Of a stretch of DNA of 64,000 nucleotides, positions 15,102 through 64,000 are shown in pieces. The position numbers and the translations under genes are program-made. The DNA comes from Aeromonas popoffii. GTDB lineage: Bacteria > Pseudomonadota > Gammaproteobacteria > Enterobacterales > Aeromonadaceae. The notes below the pieces were generated by a model, which was not told where the DNA came from, made no database searches, and saw only the letters and a program-made list of their open reading frames with translations. The number at the start of each line of letters is the position of its first letter. Position 1 is the first letter of the stretch. Location: positions 62,001 to 126,000 of the forward strand of contig NZ_CDBI01000074.1 of assembly GCF_000820025.1 (NCBI RefSeq). The letters are read 5' to 3'.

Positions 15102-15142
15102 ACGCAGTTGATGCAGGCACTCTGTATCAGCTGCGTTTTTTT
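15102..15142 (+). terminator. dnaX-ybaB terminator
   Basis: 9-bp stem with one G-U pair (ACGCAGTTG 15102-15110 with CAGCTGCGT 15128-15136), 17-nt loop and a run of seven T's. It closes the dnaX-ybaB unit. The 14960-15101 stretch before it shows no gene or recognised RNA. Confidence 0.75.
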
Positions 15143-61352: not shown

Positions 61353-61596
61353 TTTCAAATAATCAGCATCCTTTCCCTCGACAGTATTACCAATGCCATC
61401 TGTTATCTCTCACTGACATGAATATCAGCCTATTATAAGCAGGCTTATTCAAGACGATGCTAGGCAGGAGAACATGGAGGTTCAATGAGGTTTAATTCAG
61501 GATCTTTTAAGTATCGATAATATTCATTATCGATACTTGATGTCTAGGGTGGATCCTGTAAGATCCATTTAAACTTTATATGAATCAAAGCGTTCT
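61353..61596. other. AT-rich gap before the recombinase gene
   Basis: 244 nt, clearly more AT-rich than the flanks. It holds the palindromic site at 61509-61538 and a second small inverted repeat (TGGATC/GATCCA, 61550-61567). No gene is seen. Confidence 0.6.
61509..61538. repeat. perfect 13-bp inverted repeat with dif-like 11-6-11 layout
   Basis: Arms AAGTATCGATAAT / ATTATCGATACTT with a 4-nt centre. Read as a Xer-type site it is AGTATCGATAA, TATTCA, TTATCGATACT: 11-bp arms ending ATAA and starting TTAT around a 6-bp core, the geometry of dif. Each arm matches about 6 of 11 dif positions. It lies 59 nt upstream of a tyrosine recombinase. It may be its recombination site or an operator. Confidence 0.55.
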
Positions 61597-62625
61597 GTGG
61601 CATATCCAACCCTATCCGGCTCGGCATACCAATCACTGCAAACCGTCTTCGATGCCCAGCTAAATTCTCGGGCACGCCGCTTTTTGCGCGGTGCAAAAGC
61701 GGATTCCACCCTCAATGCCTATCAGGCTGATACCCGTATTTTTGTCTTCTGGTGCCTATTGCACGGGCTGGATCCGCTGCAAACTACCCATCACGACATC
61801 ATGAACTTTCTGGCTGATCAGGCCGACGGGGTATTGGCTGACTGGGTATGGCTGGATAAAGAGGAGGGCAAAGGGGAACTGCGCAACGGCGAACCTCGAA
61901 AACCTGCAACCTTGGTGAGACGTCTGGCGGGGATCCGCTATGCCTTCAAGCAGAAGGGCATCCATCCCATGCCGACCGAACATGCCGAAATCAAGGAGAT
62001 GATGCGCGGTATTGTCAGGTTGGGGGATAACCGCAAACGCAAAACTGGCGCCCTGACGCTGCAACCATTGACTCAGGTGCTGGATGGCATCGACACTACT
62101 GCTCTGGCGGGCCTGCGCGATCATACCCTGCTGCTCTTGATGTTCAGTGGCGCCTTGCGCCGCTCGGAAGCGGCCCGAATTGAAGTAAGCGATCTCGATT
62201 TTGTGGGGCAGGGGATCCGCCTTCGCCTCAAACCGAGCAAGCATCAGCTCCATGAAACCGAGATAGCCCTGATCCCTGGCAAGCACTATTGTCCCGTGTC
62301 GGCACTGCAGAACTGGCTGCGCAAAAGCCGGATCAGCGACGGGCCGCTGTTTCGGCGGATGAACCGCTGGGGTCAACTCATGACAGAACCACTCGGTCCC
62401 CAGGGTATCAACCTGATGATCAAGCGCCGAACCGGTCAAACCATCGACGATCTCTACGTCAGTGGCCACAGCCTGCGACGAGGATTCATTACCTCGGCAG
62501 TCACCGCTGGCAAGCCCATGAACAAGATCATCGAGGTGACTCGCCACAAGGACATGCGTACCCTGCAGGAGTATTTCGATGATGCCCACAAATTCTCCGA
62601 TCATGCGCTGGATGGCTTGTTGTAA
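61597..62625 (+). CDS. tyrosine recombinase / integrase
   Basis: A 342-residue tyrosine recombinase. N-terminal SAM-like core-binding region (residues about 20-125, STLNAYQADTRIFVFWCLLH). The catalytic domain has Arg188 (SGALRRSEAARIE), Lys near 215, H291-x-x-R294 (SGHSLRRGF), His317 (TRHKDMRTLQ) and nucleophile Tyr326 (QEYFD), so the enzyme looks active. Length and layout are those of chromosomal or phage integrases of XerD/Int type. Start GTG 61597 is uncertain: no clear ribosome site precedes it, and the ATG at 61580 is in another frame. The neighbouring palindrome and phage-like genes suggest it belongs to a mobile element. Confidence 0.88.
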   Translation: MAYPTLSGSAYQSLQTVFDAQLNSRARRFLRGAKADSTLNAYQADTRIFVFWCLLHGLDPLQTTHHDIMNFLADQADGVLADWVWLDKEEGKGELRNGEPRKPATLVRRLAGIRYAFKQKGIHPMPTEHAEIKEMMRGIVRLGDNRKRKTGALTLQPLTQVLDGIDTTALAGLRDHTLLLLMFSGALRRSEAARIEVSDLDFVGQGIRLRLKPSKHQLHETEIALIPGKHYCPVSALQNWLRKSRISDGPLFRRMNRWGQLMTEPLGPQGINLMIKRRTGQTIDDLYVSGHSLRRGFITSAVTAGKPMNKIIEVTRHKDMRTLQEYFDDAHKFSDHALDGLL

Positions 62626-62635
62626 CAGATACTCC

Positions 62636-62661
62636 GCGCAACTGTACAGATTACGTTAAAT
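62636..62661 (+). other. dif-like sequence, candidate Xer attachment site
   Basis: The stretch has GCGCA (62636-62640), TGTA (62643-62646) and TTACGTTAAAT (62651-62661). E. coli dif, recalled, has GCGCA, TGTA and TTATGTTAAAT in the same order. The XerD-side arm matches 10 of 11; the centre is one base longer and the rest of the XerC arm differs. It overlaps the start codon of the next gene. Function as attL/attP is inference. Confidence 0.45.
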
Positions 62662-63064
62662 GAAGACTCAAACTACGCCGCGCTGGAATAAGCCAGCTTT
62701 TGATGGTTTGAAGAGCATGGACAGAGCAATAACCAAAAACTTCATTTTTCGCTGGTTTGAATGCGGATTTAACAAGGAAGAAACCGCAAAACTATGTTTT
62801 GTTTCTGTGATGGAGGTCACATTGTGGGATGAGGGAAAAGAGATTCCCGCGATATGTAAACGGGTCATGAGGATGGCAGCAGGAAGGGAACTCCCCTCAA
62901 TTTTCGAGCGGTACTGGCATGGATGGAGAATGTCTGGATACCACCTCATCACTCCGGCGGGTTCACAGATGACCCGGCAAAGGCTGGAGCTGATCGACAT
63001 GATGGGCGCAGAAACCTTCAAGCGGTGGCAGTCGCCAAGGAAGAAATACCGGTATTACAGGTAA
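62660..63064 (+). CDS. DUF3653-like phage protein
   Basis: A 134-residue basic protein. The central part (LCFVSVMEVTLWDEGKE, then IPAICKRVMRMAAGRELPS and WHGWRMSGYHL) resembles DUF3653 phage proteins, known to me mainly from Vibrio filamentous phages. The first half (ITKNFIFRWFECGFNKEETAKL) looks like a helix-turn-helix, so DNA binding is possible. No signal or membrane segment. The ATG has no evident ribosome site and lies within the dif-like sequence. Codon use is more AT-rich than in core genes. Family assignment is from memory and needs a profile search. Confidence 0.6.
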   Translation: MKTQTTPRWNKPAFDGLKSMDRAITKNFIFRWFECGFNKEETAKLCFVSVMEVTLWDEGKEIPAICKRVMRMAAGRELPSIFERYWHGWRMSGYHLITPAGSQMTRQRLELIDMMGAETFKRWQSPRKKYRYYR

Positions 63065-63254
63065 TAGCCTAGGAGCGCTAAGGCGTTTACCTACCTCAAA
63101 ACGCCGGAAGCCTTAAAAGCCGGTTTGGCAGGAGGAAGGGGGATCCCGACTCTGGTCTAGATGGGCGTGTTTCGGCGCCTGGCTACGTCATTTTCTCTTA
63201 ACGTAGTGGGGCGCCTTGTAGGGGCTACCGCCCCTGTTCTCTGATGACCATACA
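63065..63254. other. hairpin-rich non-coding stretch, candidate phage origin or att region
   Basis: About 190 nt between two convergent genes. One large hairpin: GGCGCC (63174-63179) and CTACGT (63183-63188) pair with ACGTAG (63201-63206) and GGCGCC (63210-63215), each separated by TGG. A smaller one: AGGGGC / GCCCCT at 63220-63235. Such structure is typical of single-stranded phage intergenic regions, but could also be convergent terminators. Confidence 0.5.
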
Positions 63255-63869
63255 TCAGTGCCATTGCGGATTGGCCTTGTAGAGCTCGCGAGCGTAATCA
63301 CGAAGGGCGAGAGTGCTAGTCCACTCGTATGGTACGTGCTCAGGGCCTTCTGACATCTTGGCGAGGCGTTCCAAAAGCTGCAACATGAACAGATACGAAT
63401 AGCCACCATCATAGTCCGCAAACTTCAGAAAACGCTTCATGAGTTGCAAATGTCCCTTGTAATCGGAGAGCAACGGCATATAGACCGCCCAAGCCTGCTC
63501 TGCCGTGGACAATGCAGGATCCGGCAAATCTTGCTCTGCCGTAGACAATGCAGGATCAGGCAAATCTTGCTTTGGCTCCGGCAAGGGAAGTGCAACCTGT
63601 TTCTCTGCATCACCGCGTTCTGGGGTGGACTGCACGTTTACGTGCTCTGGTGCAGGCTTAATGACGGTGACTTTTTCAATCTTGTTGAAGTGCCACGCCA
63701 GATAACGCACGGCTAGAGCGGTGCGGATTTCAATGGCCATGTGGCCTTTCTCCATGCGGTTGATGGTGTTCCGCGCAACGCCCAGCTCATCGGCCATGCG
63801 CTGCTGTGACCAGTCCAGCACCCGGCGAAAATCCCTCAACTCCTCGGCGTTCAAGTTCAAGCTGTCCAT
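63255..63869 (-). CDS. XRE-family helix-turn-helix repressor with tandem linker repeat
   Basis: A 204-residue regulator. The N-terminal 65 residues hold a Cro/CI-type helix-turn-helix (WSQQRMADELGVARNTINRM, about residues 19-38). A Pro-rich linker carries two copies of a 12-residue unit (AEQDLPDPALST type, about residues 100-123) encoded by a 36-bp tandem repeat. The C-terminal 80 residues are helical and unassigned. ATG 63867-63869 has AGGGGGAGA upstream. Its promoter is bracketed by two identical palindromes, so self-repression is likely. Position resembles RstR-type repressors of filamentous phages, transcribed away from the replication genes. Confidence 0.8.
   Translation of the reverse strand: MDSLNLNAEELRDFRRVLDWSQQRMADELGVARNTINRMEKGHMAIEIRTALAVRYLAWHFNKIEKVTVIKPAPEHVNVQSTPERGDAEKQVALPLPEPKQDLPDPALSTAEQDLPDPALSTAEQAWAVYMPLLSDYKGHLQLMKRFLKFADYDGGYSYLFMLQLLERLAKMSEGPEHVPYEWTSTLALRDYARELYKANPQWH
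63498..63569 (-). repeat. 36-bp tandem repeat, two copies, in the repressor linker
   Basis: Units 63498-63533 and 63534-63569 differ at two bases. Each encodes 12 residues of the Pro/Asp-rich linker. Being a multiple of three, copy-number change would lengthen or shorten the linker without breaking the frame. Confidence 0.9.
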
Positions 63870-63886
63870 ACTCTCCCCCTAGAAAG

Positions 63887-63903
63887 TGCAACATCATGTT
63901 GCA
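63887..63903. promoter_or_regulatory. 17-bp palindromic operator, copy 1
   Basis: TGCAACATCATGTTGCA, a perfect 8-1-8 palindrome, 18 nt upstream of the repressor start codon and at the predicted transcription start. Identical to the site at 63934. Confidence 0.8.
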
Positions 63904-63910
63904 TATCTTG

Positions 63911-63938
63911 AGTATAGAATGACCAACATTAAATGCAA
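63911..63938 (-). promoter_or_regulatory. predicted promoter of the XRE repressor
   Basis: Minus strand TTGCAT (63933-63938), 16 nt, TATACT (63911-63916). The -35 box overlaps operator copy 2 and the start point falls at operator copy 1, which would give tight autoregulation. Confidence 0.65.
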
Positions 63939-63950
63939 CATCATGTTGCA
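63934..63950. promoter_or_regulatory. 17-bp palindromic operator, copy 2
   Basis: Second identical TGCAACATCATGTTGCA, centre 47 bp from copy 1. It overlaps the repressor's -35 and probably also controls a divergent gene beyond the window. Confidence 0.8.
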
Positions 63951-64000
63951 CATTCTTTTTGCATGTCAGTGTTTTGGCTACGGGCCGAGAGAAAGCTACA

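Follow-up and report, generated by a model that had tools for sequence, protein, structure and literature searches.

A filamentous prophage with a VGJphi-like attP module at a probable secondary Xer site of Aeromonas popoffii, next to a conserved Cre/Xer-like host recombinase gene

We analysed a window of 64,000 nucleotides from Aeromonas popoffii (NCBI RefSeq assembly GCF_000820025.1, 4.76 Mb in 105 contigs; positions 62,001 to 126,000 of contig NZ_CDBI01000074.1, here C74, 198,009 bp), whose right end holds the left part (62643–64000) of an integrated filamentous phage. The prophage starts at about 62643, is 8,484 bp long and ends beyond the window at position 15126 of a rightward extension (L026 = C74:118001–138000; L026 position = window position − 56000); its GC content is 0.54 compared to 0.587 for the window. 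From the comparisons below we consider it likely that this is an inovirus lacking a recognisable integrase, with a phage attachment site (attP) module like that of VGJphi, integrated by the host recombinases XerC and XerD at a secondary, non-dif Xer-like site. The phage itself is of an ordinary kind; its location is unusual.

The boundaries were placed by comparison with 24 contigs fetched by the tyrosine recombinase gene next to the prophage, all from Aeromonas; closest to the window were A. bestiarum and A. piscicola (90–91% over 6.7 kb). All 24 stay similar to the window past tatD, the hairpin that a preliminary description of this DNA had correctly placed after it, a lox-shaped palindrome and the 342-residue recombinase, up to 62609–62663. 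Similarity restarts at L026 15113–15334 (71113–71334 in window numbering) and runs through a RepB-like open reading frame (ORF), rsmF and the next gene, and the intervening block is found at this locus in none of them. Since the similarity continues through the recombinase, the stretch 61353–62642 is host DNA, and the element cannot begin at 61353, where its left end had been put. Both junctions lie within an Xer core sequence (attL and attR in Table 1), and the crossover falls at the TG that opens the central region, which is the XerC side. The attP, read by eye, has 29 bp with XerC arm ACCGCGCATTT, a 7-bp centre GTACAGA and XerD arm TTACGTTAAAT. Rejoining the flanks gives CTCCGCGCAAC-TGCATTTT-TTATGTTAAAT, and at their empty sites the three nearest relatives have CTCCGCGTCAC (L006, L022) or TTCCGCGTCAC (L024), followed by an identical central region and XerD arm. 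Matches to the XerD arm (at most one mismatch) occur three times in 20 kb of L026 compared to 0.10 expected (0 of 200 shuffles reached three), and the phage-derived XerC arm at attR was equalled by 1 of 2000 shuffles. Two checks proposed with the preliminary description, a search for the right att site and a comparison of occupied and empty loci, thus yielded attR and a locus that is empty in all 24 relatives' contigs.

Extension to the right, a further check proposed there, brought up the replication, coat-type and Zot genes. The element encodes a Zot/pI-type assembly ATPase and a rolling-circle Rep with a single-stranded DNA (ssDNA)-binding protein, as is characteristic of Inoviridae, and no integrase family was matched by the eight prophage ORFs compared with Pfam or the nine compared with PHROGs. 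The best Zot match in the phage collection was Alteromonas phage phiAFP1 (42.5%), and Rep is matched, among others, by Vibrio phage Vaf1 (38% over 78%) and by CTXphi RstA (43% over 63%). The ORF at 62660, rightly described as phage-type, is 51% identical over 95 residues to VGJphi ORF136 and matched a sole family, NF040522 (E 3.2e-9); as its 36.8 bits lie below the cut-off of 70, the protein is a distant relative of the XafT/VC1465 family and not a member. At the other end, the DUF3693 regulator is 35% identical over 99 residues to VGJphi ORF154. In VGJphi (Inoviridae, Fibrovirus), the annotated attP falls within the 3′ portion of ORF154, shortly before ORF136 starts; here, the ORF154-like gene reaches into attR and the ORF136 homolog begins at attL, so that the closed phage circle reads ORF154-like gene, attP, ORF136-like gene. 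An oppositely oriented small gene and a pI-type assembly gene come next in both phages, in matching positions (positions were compared, not sequence). According to the accessible part of its description, VGJphi has a single 29-bp dif-like attP, integrates as double-stranded DNA by XerC and is recorded at dif1 (PMC4246890); the prophage here likewise has a single 29-bp attP and differs in lying at a non-dif site. Compared to a VGJphi-type integrative mobile element exploiting Xer (IMEX), it has the same lack of an integrase (in the 8–9 ORFs scanned) and the same single dif-like attP at the ORF154/ORF136-like junction, but not the chromosomal integration at dif, for which reason we describe it as behaving like an IMEX whose target is a secondary site. 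XacF1 of Xanthomonas similarly carries attP inside a possible phage regulator gene and is integrated by host XerC/D, but at dif, as far as the available text goes (PMC5666396).

The chromosomal dif (at most two mismatches) was found in 36 of the 37 Aeromonas genomes surveyed (our own and 36 others). In A. popoffii it lies at C74:154977–155002, intact and with its usual right flank, 21.8 kb past attR. A Rep 80–88% identical occurs in 3 of the 36 other genomes (G032, G033 and G013) and, described by contig, in L106, L107, L108, L170 and L173. In G033 and G013 the 3′ end of the regulator gene continues straight into dif, in G032 an inverted phage block belongs to an array ending 0.7 kb from dif, and on its left, phage contig L170 is flanked by the same sequence as the A. 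hydrophila dif. Judged by their flanks, L106, L107, L108 and L170 are at dif or in adjoining arrays; for L015, L018, L173 and L176, the sole indication of placement at dif is that the XerC arm of the left junction is of the dif type. These Aeromonas inovirus prophages have a like Rep (L106, L107, L108, L170, L173) or an activation-factor-like gene (L107, L173, L176, L015 and L018 among them) in common with the prophage described here and, unlike it, lie at dif or in neighbouring arrays. A dif-like left junction shortly ahead of the activation-factor-like gene was seen in five more elements, each a distinct prophage or phage contig (L107, with L172 inside it; L173; L176; L015; L018), and the attL of L107 has the TTACGTTAAA arm in common with our prophage. 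The pattern had no match before this gene in L170 or in L106/L010/L171, which are one prophage, and degenerate versions are visible there by eye.

The secondary site itself is widely conserved. We read the region 3′ of the recombinase in 33 fetched genomes (largely the same species as the 24 locus contigs), our own genome and G029. In 30 of the 33, the XerD arm TTATGTTAAAT follows the recombinase stop at a distance of 16–32 bp; it is also present in 24/24 locus contigs, and TTATGGTAAAT is found in two further genomes, 45 and 79 bp past the stop; G036 has neither, and G029 is also without the site. Overall, of the 34 other genomes that have the recombinase, 32 retain the site, in every case unoccupied, with host genes within a few hundred bases: rsmF follows at 628–750 bp in 29/30, and in G006, which has no rsmF nearby, the RepB-like ORF region comes next. 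In A. popoffii, a gene for a RepB-RCR_reg type replication regulator stands directly behind the secondary site (L026:15271–15555) and is perhaps an old plasmid remnant near dif.

Integration would then have proceeded as follows. The phage would enter as double-stranded DNA through host XerC/XerD, using the dif-like attP at the 3′ end of the ORF154-like gene, ahead of the ORF136 homolog. The attP would recombine not with dif but with the secondary chromosomal site downstream of the host recombinase (XerD arm TTATGTTAAAT), with the crossover where the central region borders on the XerC arm, which fits a VGJphi-type strand exchange by XerC, and the activation-factor-like protein may free recombination from FtsK at such a non-dif site. 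What the comparisons show is the gene content, the boundaries, the empty orthologous sites, the relatives at or near dif and the VGJphi-like order of the attP module; that XerCD catalyse the reaction, what the activation-factor-like protein does and in which order strands are exchanged are predictions from sequence. Phages that borrow XerCD have been described as dif specialists, and in marine V. cyclitrophicus all filamentous phages recombined at two dif sites, according to the portion of that study available (PMC11630473); what is unusual here is that a phage family seen elsewhere at or near dif lies at a conserved secondary Xer-like site. A prophage so placed would mean that the Xer machinery gives such phages a second landing place, perhaps when dif is occupied, and the locus provides a natural substrate for asking whether phage-encoded activation factors make Xer recombination independent of FtsK and dif. 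Among the titles and abstract openings found by searches of open-access literature, none described a filamentous prophage of Aeromonas at a secondary Xer site, and none described the host recombinase.

Several observations weigh against XerCD integration at this site. The site is occupied in our own genome only (0 of the 32 other genomes having it), so integration here may be rare. On the XerC side, the chromosomal arm is weak: its weight-matrix similarity to dif arms beats 95% of shuffles in just 4 of 30 sites. Regarding the exact pre-integration sequence of the strain, GCGCAAC is found here compared to GCGTCAC in the three nearest relatives. The NF040522 score is below cut-off in all five proteins tested, VGJphi ORF136 (41.8 bits) included. 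Finally, xerD was not found in our own assembly, where its locus falls at a contig break, and scores above cut-off in 36/36 other genomes. Loss of xerD from the genome was considered and dropped: the DNA following xerD in a relative begins at base 1 of contig C58, so that the missing gene is most likely an assembly gap.

An alternative explanation is that the neighbouring Cre-like host recombinase, and not XerCD, integrated the phage. The attL begins six bases past the recombinase stop codon, site and gene co-occur in the 32 of 34 genomes mentioned above, and XerS/difSL is a known case of linkage between a recombinase gene and the site of its enzyme, as the accessible text reports (PMC2731167). 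However, attL and attR carry XerD arms, their likeness to the palindrome arm AAGTATCGATA is no better than chance (7 and 6 of 11 bases, reached by 385 and 500 of 500 shuffles), and the relatives of the phage are at or near dif. As attL and attR are unlike the recombinase-linked palindrome, we do not think that this enzyme placed the phage, and we regard its involvement as improbable. Somewhat less probable still is that the phage entered at dif and that homologous recombination or inversion later carried it here together with an Xer half site. The right flanks of dif and the secondary site show a weak similarity (59 of 2000 shuffles were as good for our own sequence, 18 of 2000 for the consensus), which may suggest, but no more than suggest, that the two sites are paralogous; yet phage-free species have empty orthologous sites with a similar right flank, dif is intact at C74:154977, and the junctions lie inside the Xer core.

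The explanation offered originally, an element from 61353 with its own tyrosine recombinase and a new integration arrangement for filamentous phages, draws on the recombinase gene directly adjoining attL. The integrated filamentous phage is indeed present, but the recombinase was rejected as a phage gene: it stands at the unoccupied locus in 24/24 contigs, it occurs in 34 of the 36 other genomes, and the related phage contigs L170–L173 and L176 are without it. We consider this arrangement refuted for this locus, leaving XerCD integration at the secondary site as the preferred explanation. The two Xer-like sites described along with it fared differently, as 62632–62661 is Xer-like and the palindrome at 61509–61538 has the geometry of lox, not of dif.

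Table 1 Features of the host locus and the prophage (window positions, or L026 positions where indicated)
Feature	Position	Strand	Remarks
lox-shaped palindrome, 13-8-13 (host)	61507–61540	+	arms TTAAGTATCGATA / TATCGATACTTGA, spacer ATATTCAT; upstream of recombinase
Host tyrosine recombinase, 342 residues, Cre/Xer-like	61597–62625	+	PF00589, E 9.6e-14; not phage
attL	62632–62661	+	host XerC-side arm CTCCGCGCAAC, phage central region TGTACAGA, phage XerD-like arm TTACGTTAAAT; compare empty sites L006, L022, L024
DUF3653/VC1465-family Xer recombination activation factor-like protein, VGJphi ORF136 homolog	62660–63064	+	ATG at 62717 may be the true start
Block conserved among Aeromonas inoviruses	63075–63125		88% over 51 bp in L107; 86% over 56 bp (63077–63132) in Aeromonas phage MBa-2020a
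Helix-turn-helix (HTH) repressor-like protein, 204 residues	63255–63869	−	HTH_3, E 5e-7
Operator-like 17-bp palindrome TGCAACATCATGTTGCA, copy 1	63887–63903		upstream of repressor-like gene; putative operator
Operator-like 17-bp palindrome TGCAACATCATGTTGCA, identical copy 2	63934–63950		upstream of repressor-like gene; putative operator
Zot	L026:8178–9314	−	PF05707, E 4.8e-32; phrog_197, E 7.3e-65
DUF2523/phrog_974 minor coat-type protein	L026:9354–9686	−	
531-residue protein	L026:9699–11294	−	no family match
73-residue coat-like ORF	L026:11401–11622	−	major-coat shape (small, single-span, signal peptide) by eye alone
ssDNA-binding protein	L026:11882–12190	−	phrog_5738, E 6.2e-21
Phage_GPA-type Rep	L026:12233–14413	−	E 1.9e-62
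DUF3693 regulator (ORF154-like)	L026:14784–15143	+	3′ end enters attR
attR	L026:15116–15145		GACCGCGCATT-TGCATTTT-TTATGTTAAAT

Within the left part of the prophage, the HTH repressor-like gene with two identical palindromes upstream was found as first described. Its product matches the RstR family weakly (2.2e-4, below cut-off) and contains an exact tandem duplication of 12 residues (DLPDPALSTAEQ twice). The structured DNA that had been noted at 63065–63254 did not hold up, as this stretch folds no better than shuffles (z −1.02), and it was dropped as a strong signal of an origin. The conserved block at 63075–63125 is, from its sequence conservation, a candidate replication or packaging signal. 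A further Xer-like sequence (ACYGCGTGACG ... TTATGTTAAAT) lies in the short gap upstream of zot (L026:9326–9336), degenerate here and kept in the related phages L106, L107, L170–L173 and L176; it is possibly due to chance or a translation signal.

The host recombinase was found in 35 of the 37 Aeromonas genomes, being absent from G017 and G020. In G025 (A. salmonicida; L157, L022) the gene is frameshifted, giving two tblastn pieces in different frames, and in G029 it is present without the palindrome and without the Xer-like site. The frameshift, the two absences and the state of G029 indicate that the recombinase is not essential. It was found in none of the seven genomes searched from the sister genus, and 295 genomes of the order gave 11 other matches at E ≤ 1e-20, 29–34% identical. 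The residues expected for the recombinase family (R, K, HxxR, H and Y) are invariant in an alignment of 14 sequences that includes one distant relative. An AlphaFold2 model (mean predicted local distance difference test score 68.8) gave Cre chains as its top matches (Foldseek E 1.6e-10, VIA Z 17.9), with XerD further down (4.4e-7, Z 14.1), whereas the profile ranking put an archaeal Xer (2e-10) and XerD (1.8e-8) ahead of Cre (6.2e-8).

The palindrome upstream of the gene has a 30-bp core (61509–61538; AAGTATCGATA-ATATTCAT-TATCGATACTT), which two extra bases per side extend to 34 bp with one mismatch between the arms, and its hairpin has a z of −6.97. It occurs as one site per genome in 33 of the 37 Aeromonas genomes (at most three mismatches). 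In 32 of the 33 fetched loci it begins about 84–106 bp before the matched start of the gene; the remaining locus is masked by N. The sequence is near-invariant though the flanks have diverged, and the 8-bp spacer is inverted in one species (A. taiwanensis, L017). The distance between palindrome and dif was 9.4–52 kb in the 25 genomes with both on one contig, including four at 9.4–9.5 kb. The palindrome is marginally similar to loxP: 18 of 34 positions agree, and 97 of 2000 random palindromes did as well. A palindrome with arms of at least 13 within 400 bp upstream was found for 3 of the 11 distant recombinase relatives (L125, L131, L133), compared to 3/110 other stretches of the same loci and 44/552 stretches of Aeromonas contigs, which is suggestive, although the numbers are small.

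In the accessible text of PMC4957104, a lox-like site is an intergenic site of 34 bp near the gene, with two 13-bp inverted repeats (at most two mismatches) and an 8-bp spacer; 61507–61540 has this form with one mismatch. The Aeromonas pair shares with the Cre/lox-type systems (Cre/loxP, Nigri/nox, Panto/pox) a best solved-structure match to Cre and a 34-bp 13-8-13 intergenic palindrome beside the gene. According to the same part of that source, such systems were sought in phage and plasmid sequences, whereas the Aeromonas pair is chromosomal, nearly genus-wide, near dif and predicted. The recombinase and its near-invariant palindrome raise the question whether there is a Cre/lox-like resolution system near the terminus of an ordinary XerCD bacterium. 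We suggest tentatively, and with some doubt, a nearly genus-wide chromosomal Cre/lox-like system near dif, whose adjacent dif-like Xer site would serve filamentous phages as an alternative bacterial attachment site (attB); the pair could then be a second dimer resolution system alongside XerCD/dif. Another possible role of the palindrome is that of an operator.

Inverted 12-mers (GTTATCTCTCAC / GTGAGAGATAAC) flank the recombinase module in most Aeromonas loci (61402–61413 here), at about −206 and +1150 from the recombinase start in L002–L025. The motif GAGAGATAAC occurs 43 times when both strands of the 24 loci (484 kb) are counted, and 39 of these copies fall at those two places; the downstream 12-mer copy is absent here and in L006, L022 and L024. 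A second tyrosine recombinase (468-residue frame, PF00589) is encoded immediately left of dif (L027:15448–16851; C74:153448–154851); GAGAGATAAC follows it 108 bp before dif, and the same motif lies 94–110 bp left of dif in G004, G008, G015 and G021.

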